Virus record (IMG/VR): IMGVR_UViG_3300033183_000056
Location: 1 to 58,929 of that record
Length of the DNA stretch: 58,929 nt
Strand: one strand, 5' to 3'
Source of the DNA: a virus
Shown here: positions 5,228 to 45,232 of the stretch, in pieces
Layout: every line of letters begins with the position of its first letter
How positions within the stretch are numbered: position 1 is the first letter of the stretch
Notes under the pieces: generated by a model
Databases searched by the model: none
What the model saw: only the letters and a program-made list of their open reading frames with translations
What the model was told of the DNA's origin: nothing
Position numbers and translations under genes: made by a program

Positions 5228-7133
5228 TAGCAAAAGCAAGTGAAGAATTGGTTGAATTAGTAATACTTGTAGCAAGAGTAGCACTTAATGCAGTAAGATT
5301 TGTATTAGTATTATTAATACTTGTAGCCACTGTTGCTGATAATGCAGTAAGATTTGTATTTGTATTGTCAATACTTGTTGCCAATGCAGCAGATACTGTA
5401 GTAATATTACTATTAATAGATGTGATTGCGTTTGTATTAGCAGTAATATTAGTATTGCTATTATCAATACTTGTTGCCAATGCAGCAGATACACCAACAA
5501 TAACACTATTAATAGAAGTAATAGCATTTGTATTTGTAGTAATATTTGTATTGCTGTTATCAATACTTGTTGCCATTGTTGCACTAAGAGCAGTCAAATT
5601 AGTATTTGTATTATTAATAGATGTTGCTAATGTGCTTGATACTGAAGCAATCTTACTATTAACAGAAGTAATGGCTGCGGTATTAACAGATGTTAATGCA
5701 CTTACAGCAGCAATATTAGTATTGCTGTTATCAATACTAGTTGCCATTGTTGCACTTAATGCAGTAAGATTTGTATTAGTATTATTAATAGATGTTGCTA
5801 ATGTGCTAGATACACCAGCAATAACACTATTAATAGAAGTAATAGCATTTGTATTTGTAGTGATGTTTGTATTGCTGTTATCAATACTTGTAGCCATTGT
5901 TGAACTTACAACTGCAGTAATGCTTGTTGCATAGTCAGTTACACTTGTAATACGGTTACTAATAGAAGTAATTGTAGGACCAACAAATCCTGTAGCACTT
6001 ACTGTTCCACTTACTTGTACACCAAAAGGAAATTCTGCATCTTGACCGTCTGCAAGAGTAAGCATATCAGCAGCACCAGTATTGGCTAATCTTATTCTAT
6101 TACTTTGAATATATAAATCACCAGTACCACTTTCTTTAATTACAGAATGAAGACCATTATGTTGAATAGTCAAATCATCACTGTCACCAAATTTTAATAC
6201 TGCATCATCTGGGAATGTTGCACTACCATCAACTGTAAGTTTATTAATAATATCCAGTGTCGTAATACTAACAACTTCAAAAGATTGATTAGGCTTAATG
6301 CCAATTGTTCCAGATACATCAAAGTCTGTAACTGTCGTACCATTTTCTGTTAAAAAGATACCTGTACCAGAACGAATTTCGTTCATTGTACCAGTGCCAG
6401 CAAGTCCTGTAATATTACTACCATCACCATAAAGATAAGTAGCACTTACAATACTTGTTGCTAAATTTTGTGAAAAAAGTTTACCAGTAACACTAGTTGT
6501 ACCTGAAACAGTAAATGTTCCATCTACTACAATATTACCGCCTACACTTACATTTCCATCTATTTGAGTATTACCAGTAATACTTACTGCACCAGCAACA
6601 TCGAGTGTTCCAGAAACAGACACATTATTTTCTACATATAAAGAAGAACCAGAAAGAGTACCACCAATAAAAGCATTAGCAGAAATAGTTGTTGTTGCTG
6701 TTACATCTGTTACACGACCATAAGCATCAATAGTCATTGTATTCATAGGTCCATAAGAACCTGCAGATACACCAGAATTCGCTAAATTAATTGTAGGGTT
6801 ACCTTCTGTACCGTCAGCATTAGTGACGCTTAGTGGGCTTCCTACGGCGATTGAACGACCATATACAGTTCCACCACTTACAGCAACAAGTCCTGTAGCA
6901 CCAGTAAGGTCAGCAATATTATTAAGAGCAGATACAGAAGCAGTAAGAGTTGCACCACCTAATTGGAATGTACCATTGATATTAACTGTGTCACTAGAAA
7001 TTTGTAAGGCAGAGTTTGTACCTTCACCATCTTGAACATTTCGTAATGTTGCATCTACACCAGAATTACTGTTACTAACTTGTAACAAATCTTTATATGT
7101 ATTAGCAATTGTTTTACCAGTAAGTGTAGCCAT
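5214..7133 (-). CDS. Long tail fibre with coiled-coil repeat tail
   Basis: The 639-residue protein has an N-terminal region with fibre-style beta repeats (VSVSGTLDVAGAVSITGNT, SVGGNIVVDGTFTVSG). The last 240 residues or so are a low-complexity helical repeat built from units like LATSIDNSNTNITTNTNAI and TNLTALSATMATSI. The register suggests a trimeric coiled-coil stalk. There is no S74 domain at its end. The repeats are also highly similar at DNA level, so length changes by recombination are plausible. It probably forms a fibre shaft. Confidence 0.75.
   Translation of the reverse strand: MATLTGKTIANTYKDLLQVSNSNSGVDATLRNVQDGEGTNSALQISSDTVNINGTFQLGGATLTASVSALNNIADLTGATGLVAVSGGTVYGRSIAVGSPLSVTNADGTEGNPTINLANSGVSAGSYGPMNTMTIDAYGRVTDVTATTTISANAFIGGTLSGSSLYVENNVSVSGTLDVAGAVSITGNTQIDGNVSVGGNIVVDGTFTVSGTTSVTGKLFSQNLATSIVSATYLYGDGSNITGLAGTGTMNEIRSGTGIFLTENGTTVTDFDVSGTIGIKPNQSFEVVSITTLDIINKLTVDGSATFPDDAVLKFGDSDDLTIQHNGLHSVIKESGTGDLYIQSNRIRLANTGAADMLTLADGQDAEFPFGVQVSGTVSATGFVGPTITSISNRITSVTDYATSITAVVSSTMATSIDNSNTNITTNTNAITSINSVIAGVSSTLATSINNTNTNLTALSATMATSIDNSNTNIAAVSALTSVNTAAITSVNSKIASVSSTLATSINNTNTNLTALSATMATSIDNSNTNITTNTNAITSINSVIVGVSAALATSIDNSNTNITANTNAITSINSNITTVSAALATSIDNTNTNLTALSATVATSINNTNTNLTALSATLATSITNSTNSSLAFAIALG
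5240..5930. repeat. Imperfect DNA repeats inside the fibre shaft gene
   Basis: About 690 bases are made of diverged repeats such as GTTATCAATACTTGTTGCC and CAGTAAGATTTGTATTAGT, present several times. They encode the repeated coiled-coil stalk of the fibre gene at 5214-7133. The third-codon positions differ little between units, which suggests recent duplication or gene conversion. Confidence 0.8.
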
Positions 7134-7427
7134 TTAAATCAAATTCCAATACTTGTCTGTGTCTTCCCAATTAGTTGTAGCCTGTTCCCATAGTTTATTT
7201 CTATCAAGATTATTTTCAGGTCTGGCATTTAGGATATGATGTTCTTTTTTAATAATAGGATTTTTGTTTTGTGGGTGATTTTTTAAATCATACATACCTT
7301 CAAAGTCACTGGGACATACCATCATCCCATAACTATTTTTTTTCATTACGTTGCGTTTGTATTCAAAACCACATACATCGCATTCTACAATTGAATTTAA
7401 ACTTCTAGCCATTAACTTGGTAACCAA
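7134..7427 (-). CDS. Small zinc-ribbon-like protein A (paralogue of next gene)
   Basis: The 97-residue protein has ECDVCGFEYKRNVMKKNSYG followed by MVCPSDFEGMYDLKNHPQNK. The CxxC and downstream CP could bind one metal ion with other ligands. It is clearly paralogous to the neighbour at 7412-7660 over about 45 residues. The two genes overlap by 16 bases. The family is found in marine phages near connector genes; its function is unknown to me. Confidence 0.7.
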   Translation of the reverse strand: MVTKLMARSLNSIVECDVCGFEYKRNVMKKNSYGMMVCPSDFEGMYDLKNHPQNKNPIIKKEHHILNARPENNLDRNKLWEQATTNWEDTDKYWNLI

Positions 7428-7660
7428 TCTGTAACTGTTACTATTGTTTCTGGCATTGGTGAGCGTCTTGAAGGATACTTTAGTACTTTTTCATTACCGA
7501 TTCTAGGACTTTTATTTTGAGGATGGTTTTGTAAATTATACCTTCCCTCATAATCCATAGGGCAAACCATTAAGCCATAACTATTCTTTTTTAAATCTCT
7601 TAATTTATATCTAAACCCACATACATCACAAATACCTAAAGCATTTTTTTCTTTGGACAT
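7412..7660 (-). CDS. Small zinc-ribbon-like protein B
   Basis: The 82-residue protein has ICDVCGFRYKLRDLKKNSYG and LMVCPMDYEGRYNLQNHPQ, matching its neighbour at 7134-7427 almost position by position. The tandem pair looks like a gene duplication. The ATG at 7658-7660 overlaps the end of the connector gene at 7660-8331, suggesting coupling. Confidence 0.7.
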   Translation of the reverse strand: MSKEKNALGICDVCGFRYKLRDLKKNSYGLMVCPMDYEGRYNLQNHPQNKSPRIGNEKVLKYPSRRSPMPETIVTVTDWLPS

Positions 7661-8331
7661 TATACCATAATCCTTGGTTTAAGGTAAAGATTTGTCCGTT
7701 CTCTGTCTTGTTCCATTGCTCGAAGCATACGTTCTTCATATTCTGTTTTAAGCATACTAATTCTTTGCACATCTACTCCTGGTCTTTTCATTGCCATATT
7801 GTAAGCAAGACCTGCAGTTAGACATGGAAGAAACTTACGTGATACATCTGCAGTTTCTACAGCAGATTTATTTACATCTTGAAGATAAGTAAATGTTTCT
7901 ACTTTAATTGTATCCGTAGAATTTTCAGGAATAGGCCAAAGGTACATTGTAGGATAGTCACGACCATTACGAATTGCATATTGTGTGGTACGACCTGTTT
8001 GACCTTTGTTAGGAATCTTCATATATTCTTCCATAGAGATACGTTCAAGTTGAATGTCACGATTATCTCTATTATGTACTGCCTCAAGCACATCAACTGT
8101 TGCACTTGCAAAAGCATATGATGTAACACTTGTAGTAAGAGAAACAGTAGATGTTCCAATTGACCACAACATTACACCACGGTTTTGCCAATCCTGAAGA
8201 ATAAGATTAATAGAACGTCTAGCAGACTTTGGTTCATGTCCAAGTGTCTGCTCTCCACCAATCATTTCTGTTGCTTCTTGAATAACCTCGTCAATATCCA
8301 TTGAGAAGTTATATGTACCTGAACTAGCCAT
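7660..8331 (-). CDS. Head-tail adaptor / tail accessory protein (gp4-like)
   Basis: The 223-residue protein has a helical N-terminus (VIQEATEMIGGEQ), a conserved-looking SINLILQDWQNRGVMLW, a beta middle with YLWPIPE, and a helical end rich in arginine. This order matches the phage adaptor and tail accessory proteins that bridge portal and tail in short-tailed phages. A second protein of similar design lies at 11152-11808, so the virion may have two stacked adaptor rings. Confidence 0.7.
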   Translation of the reverse strand: MASSGTYNFSMDIDEVIQEATEMIGGEQTLGHEPKSARRSINLILQDWQNRGVMLWSIGTSTVSLTTSVTSYAFASATVDVLEAVHNRDNRDIQLERISMEEYMKIPNKGQTGRTTQYAIRNGRDYPTMYLWPIPENSTDTIKVETFTYLQDVNKSAVETADVSRKFLPCLTAGLAYNMAMKRPGVDVQRISMLKTEYEERMLRAMEQDRERTNLYLKPRIMV

Positions 8332-10550: not shown

Positions 10551-11150
10551 TTATTTACCCCTTACTGCTCCATAACCTCGCATGGCTGCACCGCAACCAA
10601 CTTTACCGCCCATGTTGCGTTTAACCATACCACCTTTTTTAACAACTGTTTTACCAGCCATAGTATTAATCATTTTCTTTTGTTTGCTAGAAAGTGAACC
10701 ACCACGTTTAGCAGCAACGTCACCTGCACGAAGACCACTCATGCTACCAGAGTTTGAAGATGGTTTCTTCTTGGGCATACGTTTTTTAGCACGTTCTTTT
10801 AGTGCTTCCATTCCAGTTTTCTTTTCGATGGTTTCTTTAGCCTTCTTAGGTGTAGGTGTAGTTTGCGCACCTGAATCTTTTACCTCACGGCGAAGAGCAG
10901 AGGTTACTGTTTCCTGCTGACCTTTAGTGCCTTTCAACATATTCATCATCGTTTGAGACATACGACCATAAGGACTGCCTTTGGTATTGCCAGGAACGCT
11001 ACCAGCCTTTGGCATCTTGATAGATTGACCAACACGAATCATGTTAGCGTTCTTAATGTCTGGGTTTGCCGCAAGAAGGGCTTGGATAGTTGTTCCATTC
11101 TTTTTTGCAATTTGTGACAGAGTGTCACCACTTTTTACTTTATAAGCCAT
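10551..11150 (-). CDS. LysM-domain virion-type protein
   Basis: Residues 1-50 form a LysM domain: [19 protein letters not shown], then [20 protein letters not shown] and QSIKMP. LysM domains bind peptidoglycan. The rest of the 199 residues is basic and low in complexity, ending in a glycine/lysine-rich tail ([20 protein letters not shown]). There is no catalytic domain, so it is not itself a wall hydrolase. It may attach a virion part to the cell wall during entry, or help assemble the tail. Confidence 0.8.
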
Positions 11151-15407: not shown

Positions 15408-15824
15408 TTAATTTGACAGATTAAATGTAGGGTCTAGTTCTTTAGGGTCTGAGATAACCATAGAAATCTGGTCATCAAAGAGAAGGATAAGCCTTACTCC
15501 CTTATAAAAAAACTTTTGGCCTGAATGTTTTCCGTAACAGACATAATCTCCAACAGAACACCAAGGACCTTTCGGAAACTTGTCTTCATCTTCATACGCT
15601 GTTTCACCAATTGCAAGAACTTTACCTACAGTGGTAAGATAGGCAATATCATTTACAGTAGAATCTGGTAGAATGATACCGCCTTTTGTTTCTTTCTTAA
15701 CGGATACGGGCCGCACCAATAGGTGATAACCTGGGATACGAGGAAGGACTTCAGGGTCTGGTGCTTCACCAGCAGTAATCCATTCGTCATTCTTCATTGC
15801 TTTGTCCATAGCGACTGCTTGCAT
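15408..15824 (-). CDS. GroES-like co-chaperonin
   Basis: The 138-residue protein has the GroES core: PRIPGYHLLVRPVSVKKETK, then the mobile-loop pattern GGIILPDST, followed by GKVLAIGE and VGDYVCYGKHSGQKFFYKG. In GroES the hydrophobic residues after GGI contact GroEL; here they are I-L. Phage co-chaperonins such as T4 gp31 let the host chaperonin fold large capsid proteins. Its position among head genes fits that job. An N-terminal 25-residue extension is unusual. Confidence 0.85.
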   Translation of the reverse strand: MQAVAMDKAMKNDEWITAGEAPDPEVLPRIPGYHLLVRPVSVKKETKGGIILPDSTVNDIAYLTTVGKVLAIGETAYEDEDKFPKGPWCSVGDYVCYGKHSGQKFFYKGVRLILLFDDQISMVISDPKELDPTFNLSN

Positions 15825-19401: not shown

Positions 19402-19430
19402 ATTATACATCTATGTGCGCCAGTACGCAA
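19402..19430 (-). promoter_or_regulatory. Leftward sigma70-type promoter before the portal gene
   Basis: On the minus strand TTGCGT (19425-19430) and TATAAT (19402-19407) are 17 bases apart. It overlaps the end of the terminase gene and would start mRNA about 35 bases upstream of the portal start codon, allowing head genes to be made without terminase. Confidence 0.55.
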
Positions 19431-20973
19431 CCCTCTTTTGCTTTCTTGGGTTGACATCATCTTCCCAATTAGGGTCTTCTGGGTGTAGCAAGTTCCAACT
19501 ATCTTTCATATAGTGGATTGCCATTGTCATACAGTCTACTTGGTCATCGTGTGCGCCGTTTGGAAATGACATACACTCATCGTATAGGTCATCTGCGTAT
19601 TGTCTGTCCTTTGGTAGCCATACACGCCCTGATTCCATCATGGGAGTTGACGCATATACACGAGCAACCTTGTCTCTGTCTGGTAAATAATCCAGAACAG
19701 GCAAGCCTGCCCTGCGCATATCCTGAATCAAAGACTGACCAGAGGCTTTTTTCTCAATAATACACACGTCAGGCCGATAATCTTGGTAAAGTTCTTGGGC
19801 TAACCTGCGTAACTCTGGATATTCAAACCTTCCCCTGACATTACCAAGCAGTATCAGGTTTGACGTAAAGGTTTCACCACCATATTCGTCCTTTTCATAG
19901 TTAGAAAAGATGCCCCACGTCTGAATGACACTGTAATCGGCAGTACGTCTTGTACTAAATGCTGTATCATAGGTCTGAATTATGAAGTCACAAGACGGAG
20001 GGTCTTCATATTCCCACCATTTGAACCATCTTTTCTTAATAATACCGCCATCATCAGGCGATGGGTCCTGCATATACAGAGAGTTCCAGTATCTCGCACC
20101 GTTTGTTGCTCTGATTTCTTGCTCGTCTACCCTTAGAACTTCATCTGGCTTCCATTCTGGAAAATATGACGTACCAACTGGGAGGTCTAGCAACTCCGCC
20201 GCGACTTCATCAAGCCAGGCAGGTATCGAAATAACTTCCCAGGGGTTGGTTGTTTCTTCTACTACTGATTCCTGCTTTAAAAGCCAACCACAAAGGTCAT
20301 CATAATGGTATCTTGTGTTGATAATAATGATGGCTCCGTTCGGCATGATACGAGTACGCAAGCCTGCAGGATACCATTCCTTGATATATCTACGACCTGC
20401 TTCACTAAAACTGTCCTCTTCCGACATAACGTCATCAAGAAGCGCAACGTGCGCACCACGACCTGCTACCTGACTGCGAACACCTGCTGCATAATAAGAA
20501 CCATTCTTGTTTGTCTTCCATTTACCTGCTGCCTTTACGTCACTACGCAAAGACACACCTTTAAAAATCTTTTGAAACCGTTCAGTGTTTACAATGTCAC
20601 GGACTGTTCGACCAAAGTCACTTGCAAGTTGGTCAGAGTGTGATACAGACATAATCTCATGGTTAGCAAAGTTACCAATGTACCATGCTGGAAACAATTT
20701 GCTACAGATTACTGACTTGGAAGAACGTGGTGGTAAAAACACCATTAATCGTTTTGTTCTTCCTTCTACTACTCCTTGGAGTTTGTCACATAACAATTCA
20801 ATGTGTCTGCCCATCTTAAAATCAGATACAATGGTAGGTGCAAATATCTTAACAAATGTCAAGAAATCTGTTTTTGCTTTGGTGTCGTTATATAGTTTTA
20901 GATTGTCTCGTAAGTTAATATACGTTGACACACCAGAAAGTTCTGGGAGTTCGTTCAAACTATTATTCAACAT
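19411..20973 (-). CDS. terL: Terminase large subunit
   Basis: The 520-residue protein has an ATPase domain with a Walker A-type PPRSSKS (residues 81-87) and Walker B VALLDD (about 176-181, then MSEED). A C-terminal RNase H-like nuclease follows: TYDTAFSTRRTADYS with the first aspartate at about 336, CIIEKKASGQSL, and HDDQVD near 482. It pumps DNA into the capsid and cuts it. Its small-subunit partner is encoded 22 kb away on the other strand, which is unusual. Confidence 0.93.
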   Translation of the reverse strand: MLNNSLNELPELSGVSTYINLRDNLKLYNDTKAKTDFLTFVKIFAPTIVSDFKMGRHIELLCDKLQGVVEGRTKRLMVFLPPRSSKSVICSKLFPAWYIGNFANHEIMSVSHSDQLASDFGRTVRDIVNTERFQKIFKGVSLRSDVKAAGKWKTNKNGSYYAAGVRSQVAGRGAHVALLDDVMSEEDSFSEAGRRYIKEWYPAGLRTRIMPNGAIIIINTRYHYDDLCGWLLKQESVVEETTNPWEVISIPAWLDEVAAELLDLPVGTSYFPEWKPDEVLRVDEQEIRATNGARYWNSLYMQDPSPDDGGIIKKRWFKWWEYEDPPSCDFIIQTYDTAFSTRRTADYSVIQTWGIFSNYEKDEYGGETFTSNLILLGNVRGRFEYPELRRLAQELYQDYRPDVCIIEKKASGQSLIQDMRRAGLPVLDYLPDRDKVARVYASTPMMESGRVWLPKDRQYADDLYDECMSFPNGAHDDQVDCMTMAIHYMKDSWNLLHPEDPNWEDDVNPRKQKRVAYWRT

Positions 20974-25180: not shown

Positions 25181-25326
25181 AGGATGATGATGATGGCTTT
25201 GAATTTGAAGGTATATGGATTACCAACAGAACAAAATCACCATGTGGCAGGTTTGACTTGACACAGGAACAATCTGATGAACTCTATGGAAAGGATACAG
25301 ATAATGAATGTGCTGAGTTTGTTTGA
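25177..25326 (+). CDS. Small acidic protein, 49 residues
   Basis: The ATG overlaps the TGA of the HNH gene (ATGA). The frame encodes MKDDDDGFEFEGIWITNRTK, then SPCGRFDLTQEQSDELYGKD and TDNECAEFV. It ends inside the methyltransferase gene in another frame (23-base overlap). The coupling and sensible composition support a real gene. The function is unknown. Confidence 0.55.
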   Translation: MKDDDDGFEFEGIWITNRTKSPCGRFDLTQEQSDELYGKDTDNECAEFV

Positions 25327-26107
25327 TGGTATGTCATGTGGCAGAATTGCTCTTGACAAACTAGGTATTCAACCAGGATTTTATTTTGCGGCGGAGATTG
25401 ATAAATACGCCATACAGATAGCAAAGAAGAACTATCCTGACACTATTCATCTTGGCGATGTGCGTGATGTGTGGTGGCCTGAATCATTTGATGGCGTAAA
25501 GATTGACCTGCTCATTGGTGGTTCGCCATGTCAAGGCTTCTCGTTTGCTGGTAATCAGTTGAACTTCGATGACCCTCGAAGTAAGTTATTCTTTGAGTTT
25601 GTGCGATTGCTAAAAGAATGTAAGCCTAAATATTTTCTGCTTGAGAATGTCCGCATGAAGAAAGAAAGCCAAGAGATTATCAGCGAATATCTAGGTGTCG
25701 AGCCTGTCGAGATTAATAGTAGTCTTGTATCGGCACAGAACCGCAAGCGTTTGTATTGGACAAACATTCCCATGGATGGATTGCCAGAAGATAAGGGCAT
25801 CAAACTGCAGGACATTCTTGAGGATGGCTATGTAGACAGAGACAAGGCGCATTGCCTAGATGCAAACTATTTCAAGGGTGGCAATCTCAAATCATACTTT
25901 GAAAAACACCGAAGACAGTTGGTGTTTAGTGATGATAGTTTCTGTGGTGTATGGCGGCATCTCTACCCAGTAGAATGTGAGCGATTACAGACTGTGCCTG
26001 ATGGATACACCGAAGGCGTGTCAAATACACAACGCTATAAGATGCTGGGTAATGGATGGACAGTTGATGTCATCACTCATATTATGAAAGGAATGGAATA
26101 TGCCTAA
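25304..26107 (+). CDS. dcm: DNA cytosine-C5 methyltransferase
   Basis: I use the ATG at 25304 because it gives the classical start NVLSLFDGMSCGRIALDKLG (motif I). It is followed by GGSPCQGFSF with the catalytic cysteine at 76, ENV at 114-116, QNRKRLYW at 145-152 and MLGNGWTVDVI at the end (motif X). At 267 residues it is short, with a small target-recognition part. It methylates cytosine in DNA, probably to escape host restriction. AAGGA lies before the start codon. Confidence 0.92.
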   Translation: MNVLSLFDGMSCGRIALDKLGIQPGFYFAAEIDKYAIQIAKKNYPDTIHLGDVRDVWWPESFDGVKIDLLIGGSPCQGFSFAGNQLNFDDPRSKLFFEFVRLLKECKPKYFLLENVRMKKESQEIISEYLGVEPVEINSSLVSAQNRKRLYWTNIPMDGLPEDKGIKLQDILEDGYVDRDKAHCLDANYFKGGNLKSYFEKHRRQLVFSDDSFCGVWRHLYPVECERLQTVPDGYTEGVSNTQRYKMLGNGWTVDVITHIMKGMEYA

Positions 26108-40510: not shown

Positions 40511-41287
40511 ATGTTCTTACCAAAGCAACATACAATTTATATTGGCTATGACGAAAGAGAGAGAGATGCTTATGAAGTTCTTCGATATTCAATTCTCAAA
40601 TACAATCAGGACTACAATATCATTCCTCTCGTTCAATCAGGTTTACGTAGAGCAGGCTTGTATCGCAGGGCTGCTAGGATGGATAGCATTAATGGCAAAC
40701 GTGTAATGGTTGACGAGACTGATGGGCGACCATTCAGTACACAGTTTACCTTCACACGCTTTCTGATTCCTGCACTCAATCAATACGATGGCTGGGCTTT
40801 GTTTATGGATTCAGACATGATGCTACGCACAGACATTGGTGAATTGTTTGACAAGTATACTCGCAATACTGAGTATGCCATTCAGTGTGTCAAGCATAAC
40901 TACACTCCAAACAAAACAATTAAAATGGATGGACAGATACAACAAACATACAACAGAAAGAACTGGTCTAGTTTTATGTTGTGGAATTGTTCTCATGCCG
41001 CTAACCTACGCCTTACTGTCGATGATGCTAACGTAAAGACAGGCTCATGGCTACATGGTTTGTCATGGCTTGAAGACGATGAGATTGGTGCTATTAACGA
41101 AGATTGGAACTGGCTAGATGATTGGTCACCAGAACATTTGAATCCTAAGAACGTACACTTTACTACTGGTGGTCCTTGGTTTAAAGAATGGGAACCTAAA
41201 CGTCAGTCCGACATTGCCTATGCAGGTGAATGGGAATCACTTCGTAGTCAACTTATTTCTGAGAAGATGATTGGAGATGTAATTTAA
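40511..41287 (+). CDS. Glycosyltransferase, GT-A fold
   Basis: The 258-residue protein begins FLPKQHTIYIGYDERERDAY and contains FTRFLIPALNQYDGWALFMD, with the metal-binding DSD at residues 100-102. A HGLSWLEDDEIGAI segment follows and the end has HFTTGGPWFKEWEP. This matches GT8-like nucleotide-sugar transferases of phages. It overlaps the stop of the next gene's start by one base, so both are co-expressed. The sugar and acceptor (cell surface or DNA) cannot be told. Confidence 0.75.
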   Translation: MFLPKQHTIYIGYDERERDAYEVLRYSILKYNQDYNIIPLVQSGLRRAGLYRRAARMDSINGKRVMVDETDGRPFSTQFTFTRFLIPALNQYDGWALFMDSDMMLRTDIGELFDKYTRNTEYAIQCVKHNYTPNKTIKMDGQIQQTYNRKNWSSFMLWNCSHAANLRLTVDDANVKTGSWLHGLSWLEDDEIGAINEDWNWLDDWSPEHLNPKNVHFTTGGPWFKEWEPKRQSDIAYAGEWESLRSQLISEKMIGDVI

Positions 41288-43596
41288 TGTATACTTTTGT
41301 AACATCATTTAGTGAGAAAGGTTATCATGAGTATGGCAAAACAATGCTTGAAAGTGTTAAAGAAAAATGGAATCCAGAACACTTTAAACTTATTGCGTAT
41401 TATCATGATTTCGACATTTCGACTGTCGATGCTCCTATTTGTGATAGTATTTCTTATAGGAATCTAAACGATGTAGAAGAGATGGTTCAGTATCGTGAAC
41501 GCATGAAGATTCATGATGGCACTGAAGGCGGTAAGATGGCATACAACTGGCGTCTTGATGCTATTAAATGGTGTCATAAGGTATATGCCATGACAGACCT
41601 GGCATTTGAAATGATGGAAGATTCTATTGATGTTACAAAAGAACATCAAGAACATTGGATGATTTGGATTGATGCAGATACAGTGACAACAAAACTGTTA
41701 CAAGTTGCAGATGTAAACAGATGGTTACCTGCAAAGGTTGACCTTGTACACCTTGGACGTAAGGATGTTGACTACAGTGAGACAAGTTTCATGGGCTTTA
41801 ATCTGTCTCGCCATAATACTTGTAGTCTTCTTGCTGACCTTCGTGGTTGTTATACGATTGGTGAGACTGTAGCCTATCGTGAATGGCATGATGGTTTTAT
41901 CTTTGAGCGTCTGCTTAATATCTACAAGGCACATGGTATGGTTGTTCATAATCTTTCTGAAAATGCAACAGGTCTTGATGCCTTTGGTCAGTCACCCTTG
42001 TCTGAATATTTTACGCATTACAAAGGCAATCTCAAGAAGAAAGCAAGCAAAACACAGGTATCACCTGATGTCACTGGTCCAAAGCGTTACAAGCAGTTGG
42101 CAGATATTGTTCGTCATTACAAGCCTAAGACTATTGTAGAGACAGGCACATGGAATGGTGGACGTGCTATTGAGATGGCTCTCGCTGCATTTGAAACACA
42201 TGACAAGGTACATTATCTTGGCTTTGATTTGTTTGAAGAAGCAACAGAAGAACTTGACAAGTATGAGATGAACAGCAAGCCACACAATACCATTGAGGCT
42301 GTACGCAATCGTCTTGACGAGTTTGCTGCCAAGATGCAGGAGCGTGGTAAACGATTTACTTTTAAACTACATAAAGGTGACAGCAAGAAAACACTGGAAC
42401 GTTGTAAGGCTGTAAAGAAGGCAGACTTTGCATACATTGATGGTGGACATTCTTATGAAACAGTTAAGTCTGACTACGAGAATTTGAAGACTGTTCCTAT
42501 TCTCGTGTTTGATGATTACTTTACTAAGGATGGCGCAGGTAATCTACCACATAAAGATAACCTTGGTGTTAATAAACTAATGAAGGAGATTGAAGCATAT
42601 GGAAAGGTTGTACTTCCTAGCAATGACCCTGTTCTTGGTGGTGGCATTACACATCTTTGTTTTGTAGCAAACAAGAAAGGGCTTCCTAAACTACCCGATG
42701 ATATTACTCGTGTTCCTATTGTTGTCACGCCTAAAGATTCTCGACCAAAGAAAGAAATCATTGACAACGTAAAGGCTAACAAAAAACTGATTAAAGACTT
42801 TGATTGGATTAAAACAAGCAAGGTTAATAATGAAACAGCAATCATTGTATCTGGTGGTTACAGTACAGACTTTTATCTTTTGAAGGAACGCATTGCAAAA
42901 ACAGGCGGTAAAGTATTCTGTGTTAAGCATAGTTATCCTAAGTTACTTGAGCAAGGCATTGACCCGTTTGCCTGTGTTATTCTTGACCCTCGACCTATTG
43001 ATGGTATGAGTACACATGGCGTAGTTCGTAAGGACTTGTTTCAGAAAGTAGATGACAAGACATTGTTCCTTGTTGCATCTATGACTGACCCATCTGTTAC
43101 CAAACACCTTATGTCAAAGGGTGCAAACATTAGAGGATGGCAAGCCTATTCAGATGCGCTTCGTGACATAAGCATCAAAGAAAAGATTGTTGTTGACAAG
43201 GAAACAGGCATCGAAGAAGGTTCAACACTGATTACTGGTGGTACTTGTGCAGCAATGCGTACACTTGCTATTGCTCATACATTAGGTTTCCGTAACTTTG
43301 AACTGTTTGGTTTTGACTGTTCTATTGAAAACATGACGGAAGAAATGAAAAAAGAATCTACTGAAACAGAACCAGGAAAGAATAAATATTTTCAGGTTGA
43401 GTTAAACGGTAACCATTTCTGGACTACAGGCGAGTTGCTTGCTATGGCACAAGACTGTGAGAAACTGTTTGACAATATGGAAATGGATATGGGAATTACA
43501 TTTCACGGTAAAGACACACTATGTGCAGAAGTATGGAAATCCTCTAAGCGTGGTAAAGAAAAGCATTATTCAGAGTTACTAACTGATGCCGCTTAA
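41287..43596 (+). CDS. Three-domain protein: transferase, SAM methyltransferase, DUF115-like
   Basis: The 769-residue protein has three parts. Residues 1-235 look like a second GT-A domain with a DAD at 129-131 (IWIDADTVTT). Residues 270-465 are a class I SAM-dependent methyltransferase with ETGTWNGG (285-292), LGFDLFEEAT, YIDGGHSYETV and LVFDDYF. Residues 515 to about 680 have AIIVSGGYSTDF and TLITGGTCAAMRTLAIAHTL, GFRNFELFGFDCS, which resemble DUF115/MAF-type proteins tied to flagellin or cell-surface glycosylation. It probably modifies a sugar. Confidence 0.75.
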   Translation: MYTFVTSFSEKGYHEYGKTMLESVKEKWNPEHFKLIAYYHDFDISTVDAPICDSISYRNLNDVEEMVQYRERMKIHDGTEGGKMAYNWRLDAIKWCHKVYAMTDLAFEMMEDSIDVTKEHQEHWMIWIDADTVTTKLLQVADVNRWLPAKVDLVHLGRKDVDYSETSFMGFNLSRHNTCSLLADLRGCYTIGETVAYREWHDGFIFERLLNIYKAHGMVVHNLSENATGLDAFGQSPLSEYFTHYKGNLKKKASKTQVSPDVTGPKRYKQLADIVRHYKPKTIVETGTWNGGRAIEMALAAFETHDKVHYLGFDLFEEATEELDKYEMNSKPHNTIEAVRNRLDEFAAKMQERGKRFTFKLHKGDSKKTLERCKAVKKADFAYIDGGHSYETVKSDYENLKTVPILVFDDYFTKDGAGNLPHKDNLGVNKLMKEIEAYGKVVLPSNDPVLGGGITHLCFVANKKGLPKLPDDITRVPIVVTPKDSRPKKEIIDNVKANKKLIKDFDWIKTSKVNNETAIIVSGGYSTDFYLLKERIAKTGGKVFCVKHSYPKLLEQGIDPFACVILDPRPIDGMSTHGVVRKDLFQKVDDKTLFLVASMTDPSVTKHLMSKGANIRGWQAYSDALRDISIKEKIVVDKETGIEEGSTLITGGTCAAMRTLAIAHTLGFRNFELFGFDCSIENMTEEMKKESTETEPGKNKYFQVELNGNHFWTTGELLAMAQDCEKLFDNMEMDMGITFHGKDTLCAEVWKSSKRGKEKHYSELLTDAA

Positions 43597-44074
43597 AGAA
43601 AAACATGAGAAGTTTTGTCAATCCTATGTCTTGCATCGAAATGCTACAAAAGCGGCAATCGCTGCAGGATATAGTGAAGCGTCCGCACATAACCAAGGTT
43701 ATCGCTTGGTACACGATGAAGCCATTAAGGAAAGAATCAAGGAACTTGAGCAAGGCATAACCACAGATGTAGATGTTATATCAGAGATTGAGAAGCAGTA
43801 CGAAGCGGCTCGTATATCTGGTCACGGCAATACTGCTCTCAAGGCTCTTGAACTTCTTGCCAAGGTCAGAGGTAATAATGCAGATGACGTATCAACAGAT
43901 GTTGAGACATTAGAAACTGAGATTATTTATTCGTTACAAGTAATGGGATTTGAAAAGGCTTTTGAACTAATGGAACAAGCCTTTCCAAACCAGTTTAAAG
44001 AAGACGAATTACTTCTTGCCGATGAACTTAGCAGCCCCACGCATAGCGAAGGTGGCACTGATAATCAAGCCTAG
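43586..44074 (+). CDS. terS: Terminase small subunit
   Basis: The 162-residue protein has KHEKFCQSYVLHRNATKAAI, then AAGYSEASAHNQGYRLVHDE and AIKERIKELE, the helix-turn-helix pattern of Terminase_2 small subunits. It recognises phage DNA for packaging. It overlaps the end of the previous gene by eleven bases. It is the last gene of the rightward block; the large subunit is at 19411-20973 on the opposite strand. Confidence 0.82.
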   Translation: MPLKEKHEKFCQSYVLHRNATKAAIAAGYSEASAHNQGYRLVHDEAIKERIKELEQGITTDVDVISEIEKQYEAARISGHGNTALKALELLAKVRGNNADDVSTDVETLETEIIYSLQVMGFEKAFELMEQAFPNQFKEDELLLADELSSPTHSEGGTDNQA

Positions 44075-44434: not shown

Positions 44435-45232
44435 TCATGCTGGCGGTATCTCATTCTTAATATAAATCATATCTAAACCAGCAGAAACTTCAACATTGCC
44501 ACTACCAGAATCAGATATTGCTCTTACTTCAATATCAGTTTTTTCTGTAAATTTCAAAGGAAATCTATACACCTGATTTATGTTTCCACCATCAACTTGT
44601 ATACCAAACTTATCCTTTACTTGAAAGACTTCTCCATATGGACGTGCAACAATAGTTGCTGTTAATAACTTGTTAGAAGTTGTACAAGCAGCAGTAATAT
44701 GGCTTTGATAAAGATAGGCAGTATATCCTGCAGGTACTGTCCATAAAGCCATTAAAGTTTGTCCATCTCCTGCTACAACTGTTGCATATTTATTTACTGG
44801 AACACCAGCAGTTACTGTACCTGTACCTGCATAAATAACACCTGCATTAGTACCATTACTACCTGCACTACGAACAACCATACGATTAATACGTAAGTAT
44901 TCATTTGTTGTGTTTACTGCAGTTTGTCCATCTAATGTAACTGTTTCATTAATCTCATTATAATCAGCATCCAGACCATATAACTGAACAGTTTCTGCAC
45001 CTGTACCACCTTCATCATCATCCGTGCTTGAACTTGAAACCTTTAAAACAGAAGCAGAACTCAGGTAGTTATACAAGCCACCTTCTGCCCATATAGTTTC
45101 CAAAGAATTATCTATGTCTTGGTTAAAACCAAACTTAAAATTAGTTTTATGAAAAGCAATCTGTCCTCTTGAAACTTGTAATTCAAAAGGTTCATGCTTT
45201 CCAGTACGTGTCATTGAACTAGGCGTACCCAC
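44435..45232 (-). CDS. Virion structural protein, 265 residues
   Basis: The protein is beta-rich with SLETIWAEGGLYNYLSSASV, LYGLDADYNEINETVTLDGQ and VNTTNEYLRINRMVVRSAGS. I recognise the GLDxNYNExxExVTLxGQ pattern from virion proteins of marine phages. Its precise part in the virion is unknown. It is adjacent to the lysozyme. Confidence 0.7.
   Translation of the reverse strand: MGTPSSMTRTGKHEPFELQVSRGQIAFHKTNFKFGFNQDIDNSLETIWAEGGLYNYLSSASVLKVSSSSTDDDEGGTGAETVQLYGLDADYNEINETVTLDGQTAVNTTNEYLRINRMVVRSAGSNGTNAGVIYAGTGTVTAGVPVNKYATVVAGDGQTLMALWTVPAGYTAYLYQSHITAACTTSNKLLTATIVARPYGEVFQVKDKFGIQVDGGNINQVYRFPLKFTEKTDIEVRAISDSGSGNVEVSAGLDMIYIKNEIPPA

Follow-up and report, generated by a model that had tools for sequence, protein, structure and literature searches.

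What is made by a pair of overlapping phage genes that appears to specify two glycosyltransferases, a methyltransferase and a relative of bacterial flagellin glycosyltransferases, and where is the product placed? Virus-encoded glycan enzymes, glycosylation of phage virions and multi-domain viral transferases are all already known. The pair examined here lies in IMGVR_UViG_3300033183_000056, a 58,929-base virus record from IMG/VR, the whole of which is referred to below as the window. A sequence-only reading of the locus had described a glycan-modification cassette and proposed three uses for it: alteration of the host envelope, decoration of virion proteins, or modification of DNA bases.

The locus and its gene context

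By gene content, the window appears to derive from a tailed, podovirus-like phage. The terminase large subunit (TerL), portal and major head gene are encoded on the minus strand, and a primase-helicase, DNA polymerase, Cas4-like exonuclease and ribonucleotide reductase (RNR) on the plus strand. Among phage records, the closest large terminases are those of HTVC023P-type pelagiphages, at 38% identity to that of the window. Both cassette open reading frames (ORFs) are located where the plus-strand replication block ends, and both have the extents originally given for them: a 258-aa gene, hereafter G, at 40511-41287 (+), and a 769-aa fusion protein at 41287-43596 (+). The two ORFs share one base (TAATG), and the fusion ORF overlaps by 11 bases the ORF of the terminase small subunit (TerS; 43586-44074, +), a conserved downstream neighbor that lies outside the enzyme set. 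TerS is separated from TerL (19411-20973, -) by ~23 kb, with the two genes on opposite strands, and accompanies the glycan cassette in relatives. A scan for promoters and terminators gave no clear excess over shuffled sequences.

Several other genes of the window deserve mention. Facing the cassette at 44435-45232 (-) is a conserved 265-aa protein (phrog_8198, E 5.6e-54), the gene for which is oriented convergently to the cassette in many relatives; the protein is rich in Ser, Thr and Gly and is a candidate acceptor. The head-gene block includes a GroES-like co-chaperonin (15408-15824, -; Cpn10, E 3.9e-10), and a GroES gene is similarly placed in HTVC023P. A LysM-domain protein (10551-11150, -; E 6e-16) lies amid the structural genes, and a C5-cytosine DNA methylase (25277-26107, +; E 3.5e-43) in the early block.

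Domain composition of the two proteins

Searched as a single sequence, G matches the Pfam GT8 model weakly and under the cut-off (E 0.011). A profile of the G family matches two enzymes of solved structure, WbbM (E 2e-4) and GlyE (E 5e-4), the latter a GT8 enzyme, and the two aspartates of its DxD motif, D100 and D102, are invariant across 38 sequences. The AlphaFold model is confident (mean pLDDT 91.5), and GT8 folds head its list of Foldseek matches (GlyE, WbbM, LgtC and glycogenin), with a capsid glycosyltransferase of the chlorovirus PBCV-1 lower down. By profile, as well as by modeled GT-A fold with its DxD, G is a GT8-type GT-A glycosyltransferase, in keeping with its first description as a GT-A transferase.

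The fusion protein is modeled as three confident domains (mean pLDDT 89.4); the pTM of 0.52 means that their placement relative to one another is not reliable. Foldseek matches to the model include Maf, alpha-1,3-galactosyltransferases, O-methyltransferases and MptE. The protein thus holds one GT-A, one methyltransferase and one Maf-like domain, the second GT-A being that of the adjacent gene. For the N-terminal third (N domain; 41287-42045, +, approximately aa 1-253), no Pfam model was matched, and a search of its sequence against the PDB returned zero matches up to E 5. Its predicted fold resembles GT6 alpha-1,3-galactosyltransferases (Foldseek E ~1e-6) at a low identity of ~10%, and it carries the motifs WIDAD, LGR..YSE, EWHD and H.KG. 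Because of the lack of a PDB sequence match, we file the N domain as having a GT6-like fold and not as a GT6 member.

The central, or MT, domain (42070-42684, +, approximately aa 262-466) matches Methyltransf_24 at aa 284-403 (E 2.4e-11; 44.9 bits against a curated cut-off of 26.3). Its motifs are ETGTWNGG, GFDLF and IDGGH, of which E.GT and IDGGH are conserved, and its model folds like small-molecule O-methyltransferases; we assign it as an S-adenosylmethionine (SAM)-dependent O-methyltransferase. The remaining C domain (42745-43593, +, approximately aa 487-769) matches PF01973, the Maf/DUF115/MptE-like family, at aa 490-681 (E 6e-13; 49.4 bits against a curated cut-off of 34.6), and shows the motifs SGG, VKH, DPR, GGT and GFD. 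By profile and by fold, its nearest solved structure is the Maf glycosyltransferase 5MU5 (profile E 2.5e-5), with MptE (8sd5; E 0.0037) second. We considered and rejected its identification as a Maf flagellin glycosyltransferase proper, as only the central PF01973 part matches and the flanks are a GT-A and a methyltransferase domain. The sequence-only reading had named a second transferase-like domain, a SAM methyltransferase and a DUF115/MAF-like domain in this protein, and unrelated folds would have spoken against it; the predicted folds agree with each of the three.

Nearly all relatives in which a given domain is present retain its key motifs. In every domain dN/dS lies between 0.04 and 0.16 (Nei-Gojobori estimates from comparison with four relatives, in which synonymous sites are partly saturated), and all parts of the cassette are under purifying selection. 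Given these ratios, and given that hundreds of viral stretches encode a relative, the cassette ORFs are not chance reading frames.

A core module of a mostly aquatic phage lineage

In a scan of viral contigs, a relative was encoded in 305 stretches, and the 80 top matches cover nearly the whole protein. According to domain models, G followed by an N-MT-C fusion is the arrangement in 147 of the 240 loci fetched, although some contigs are counted twice. The survey of neighbors that had been proposed finds the fusion beside the same G in more than 100 viral loci. TerS is the next recognized gene downstream in 130 of 153 fusion loci, with none recognized in 18. Among 18 long related records, TerS is present in 15 and the fusion in the same 15; the other three have neither and are probably fragments. 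Distances for the fusion correlate with those for TerS (r = 0.88) and RNR (r = 0.92), values reached in 0 of 999 permutations, indicating that the cassette co-evolves with both genes. In one record (L122) the upstream ORF resembles a class I RNR small subunit, as named by eye, and the module and TerS are still present. Since all 15 TerS-bearing long records carry the fusion, and since distances track TerS and RNR, the glycan module is core to this mostly aquatic lineage. The same whole-record searches led us to drop the idea that the cassette is an accessory moron.

The domain order had been called unfamiliar. It was not found described in the literature that we searched, but it is common in viral contigs and standard in a whole lineage. 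The architecture is also already present in databases without a function: the 714-aa predicted structure of A0A6J7X5Q0, from an uncultured Caudovirales phage, can be aligned with almost the entire fusion (E 8e-64, 33% identity), and its name reflects its methyltransferase domain only. Among cultured phages none with the full fusion was found; tblastn with the whole protein recovered the N part alone, in two phages, and searches with the MT-C and C proteins of relatives gave no match.

Variants and their neighborhoods

Outside the standard arrangement, the parts occur in several other combinations. N and MT-C are separate genes in L108, L117 and L129, the MT domain is absent from L106, L109 has four separate genes, and only C and G are present in L110. 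In L135, a radical SAM/SPASM gene (6865-7797) occupies the position of G, directly before a complete N-MT-C fusion. Single genes with the reverse order, MT-N, are found on MarineAlpha3 and Rhodospirillaceae metagenome-assembled genome contigs (L241:7317-8813 and L244:1396-2895). Such recurrent joining, splitting and reordering suggests that the parts may act on one product.

The non-fused relatives also differ in where they lie. In L129, the major head protein and a decoration-like structural protein are followed by G, N, a GDP-mannose 4,6-dehydratase (E 2.8e-117), MT-C and then further morphogenesis-like genes. The same pair of head genes precedes PF01973 genes in L110 and in many loci of the L196 type. 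At L196:7938-10734 and similar loci among L181-L240, on contigs of up to ~35 kb, two consecutive PF01973 genes immediately follow the head and decoration-like genes. The capsid proteins of L129, L110 and the L196 type belong to a single family (36-56% identity), and therefore these capsid-adjacent cases are not fully independent and represent fewer events than their count suggests. In L109 the parts surround an unrelated head gene, and in L108 they stand just before the portal gene. The latter phage, which has G, N and MT-C, also encodes a CMP-sugar cytidylyltransferase (L108:6180-7046, -; PF02348, E 2.3e-36; KdsB-like by eye) that adjoins the portal gene and is the only one among 24 records. 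CMP-sugars are the donor class of Maf enzymes. Closer to the window, a sister clade within its own lineage, represented by four long records plus additional contigs, encodes a GDP-mannose 4,6-dehydratase directly after TerS.

Proposed function and alternatives

We propose that the cassette encodes a soluble, cytosolic enzyme set that would decorate a virion protein, be it capsid, decoration protein or fibre, with a short, O-methylated glycan, and give this proposal roughly even chances. The Maf-like C domain would link the first sugar, which the host would provide in activated form, to Ser or Thr of a phage protein; a priming role for this domain is a guess from homology. G and the N domain, as two GT-A enzymes, would lengthen the glycan by one or two sugars, the MT domain would cap it through O-methylation, and all of this would take place before the particle is assembled. 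We infer the donor sugars, linkage, order of action and acceptor in this scheme, as well as its benefit, which may be particle masking or adsorption tuning.

The proposal is favored because a single operon holds two GT-A enzymes, an O-methyltransferase and a Maf-like domain, all conserved. That the cassette builds a glycan is likely. The proposal as a whole is also favored by the GDP-mannose 4,6-dehydratase genes within the L129 set and after TerS in the sister clade. It is weakened by the absence of a sugar-nucleotide gene from the window, which has neither a GDP-mannose dehydratase nor a CMP-sugar synthetase, by the shared capsid family of the capsid-adjacent cases, and by the failure to find the full fusion in a cultured phage. 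The virion as the target is about an even bet that draws on gene neighborhood: it is favored by the parts of non-fused relatives adjoining head, decoration-like or portal genes, and weakened by the lineage of the window itself, in which the set adjoins TerS where the replication block ends, away from the head genes. Of the three uses first envisaged, virion decoration fits best.

The main rival explanation is that, in the infected cell, the set alters a glycan of the host surface (LPS, capsule or flagellin), for instance to block re-adsorption of progeny or entry of competing phages. Flagellin is the substrate of the Maf relatives, related N and G genes lie close together in marine bacterial genomes, and a survey, as cited in PMC9599517, links pelagimyophage glycosyltransferases to LPS modification; moreover, a comparable cluster in Pelagibacter phage Mosig EXVC030M contains a sulfotransferase and FkbM-type methyltransferases. 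However, the cassette proteins have no membrane segments and the set has no membrane or flippase component, and in other lineages the parts lie amid head genes. The window also lacks a tyrosine integrase and so shows no sign of lysogeny, the state in which serotype conversion pays most, and lysogenic serotype conversion was rejected for this reason. We consider an action on the host envelope unlikely overall, although it retains an appreciable share of the probability.

Far less probable is hypermodification of phage DNA bases with methylated sugars as a defense against restriction. Phage glycosyltransferases acting on DNA are known, and one of the PHROGs matched by the MT domain is labeled DNA methyltransferase. 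Relatives of the HTVC023P type have thymidine hypermodification genes (PMC9599517), but PF00303, the thymidylate-synthase-type hydroxymethylase, is absent from the record in a search whose controls were detected, leaving this part of the sequence-only reading with little support. Furthermore, the MT domain is of the Methyltransf_24 type, with an IDGGH motif and a small-molecule O-methyltransferase-like fold, and the C domain is similar to a protein glycosyltransferase. Marginally less probable still is a role of the fusion in cofactor or other small-molecule metabolism, with the C domain acting as an MptE-like pterin diphosphokinase. MptE gave PF01973 its name, and its structure 8sd5 also matches the C domain by fold (TMt 0.67), but profile and fold scores are better for Maf, and the C domain travels with glycosyltransferases and GDP-mannose dehydratase. 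In the printed alignments, the phage domains have DPRP or similar at the position of DLDG in 8sd5, and on this ground we rejected the C domain as an MptE pterin diphosphokinase.

Comparison with known systems

The proposed virion glycan set can be compared with A064R of the chlorovirus PBCV-1, a GT-GT-methyltransferase that finishes the capsid glycan (PMC9614988). A064R is a single viral protein whose two GT domains and SAM methyltransferase assemble a glycan and methylate it, and we propose a comparable activity for the cassette, in which the second GT-A is encoded by the adjacent gene; the first domain of A064R is a GT-A with DxD, as in the cassette, and PBCV-1 encodes a GDP-mannose 4,6-dehydratase, as do some relatives of the window phage. 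They differ in that the order is GT-GT-MT in A064R and GT-MT-Maf in the fusion, that A064R has no Maf-like domain, and that its substrate is the N-glycan of a eukaryotic virus, unlike the O-glycan proposed here.

Maf modifies flagellin within the cytoplasm, prior to assembly (PMC4065374), and PF01973 resembles the sialyltransferase Cst-II (PMC11339370). The domains flanking Maf are Rossmann-like and helical, whereas the C domain of the window is phage-encoded and flanked otherwise. Capsid and tail glycosylation in mycobacteriophages (Freeman 2023, cited in PMC12363180) likewise involves phage-encoded glycosyltransferases, with a virion target that is demonstrated there and inferred here; the description given in PMC12363180 mentions no methyltransferase-Maf fusion. 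Mosig EXVC030M (L113) has adjacent N-type and G-type genes and methyltransferases in one cluster, as here, but they are unfused, and MT and C domains of the cassette family were not detected. In the literature searched, we found no description of the Maf-type combination, its core status or its recurrent adjacency to head genes, and no work on DUF115 in phages.

Implications

It is possible, though on balance doubtful, that the cassette represents a phage O-glycosylation machine contained largely in one polypeptide, with Maf-type priming and with fused and neighboring transferases and methyltransferase extending and capping the glycan. If true, phages of a widespread aquatic lineage would be putting Maf-type chemistry to viral use, and modification of their virions would be an obligatory, core trait. 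To our knowledge, virion glycosylation has been demonstrated in few tailed phages, and the benefit known for it relates to animal immunity. Here the glycan pair is core in a common phage lineage whose bacterial hosts make no antibodies, and therefore a different payoff would be expected, such as adsorption, stability or protection from particle-binding factors. Natural variants offer ready comparisons: L106 without the methyltransferase, L108 and L129 with split genes, and the sister clade with its extra GDP-mannose dehydratase.
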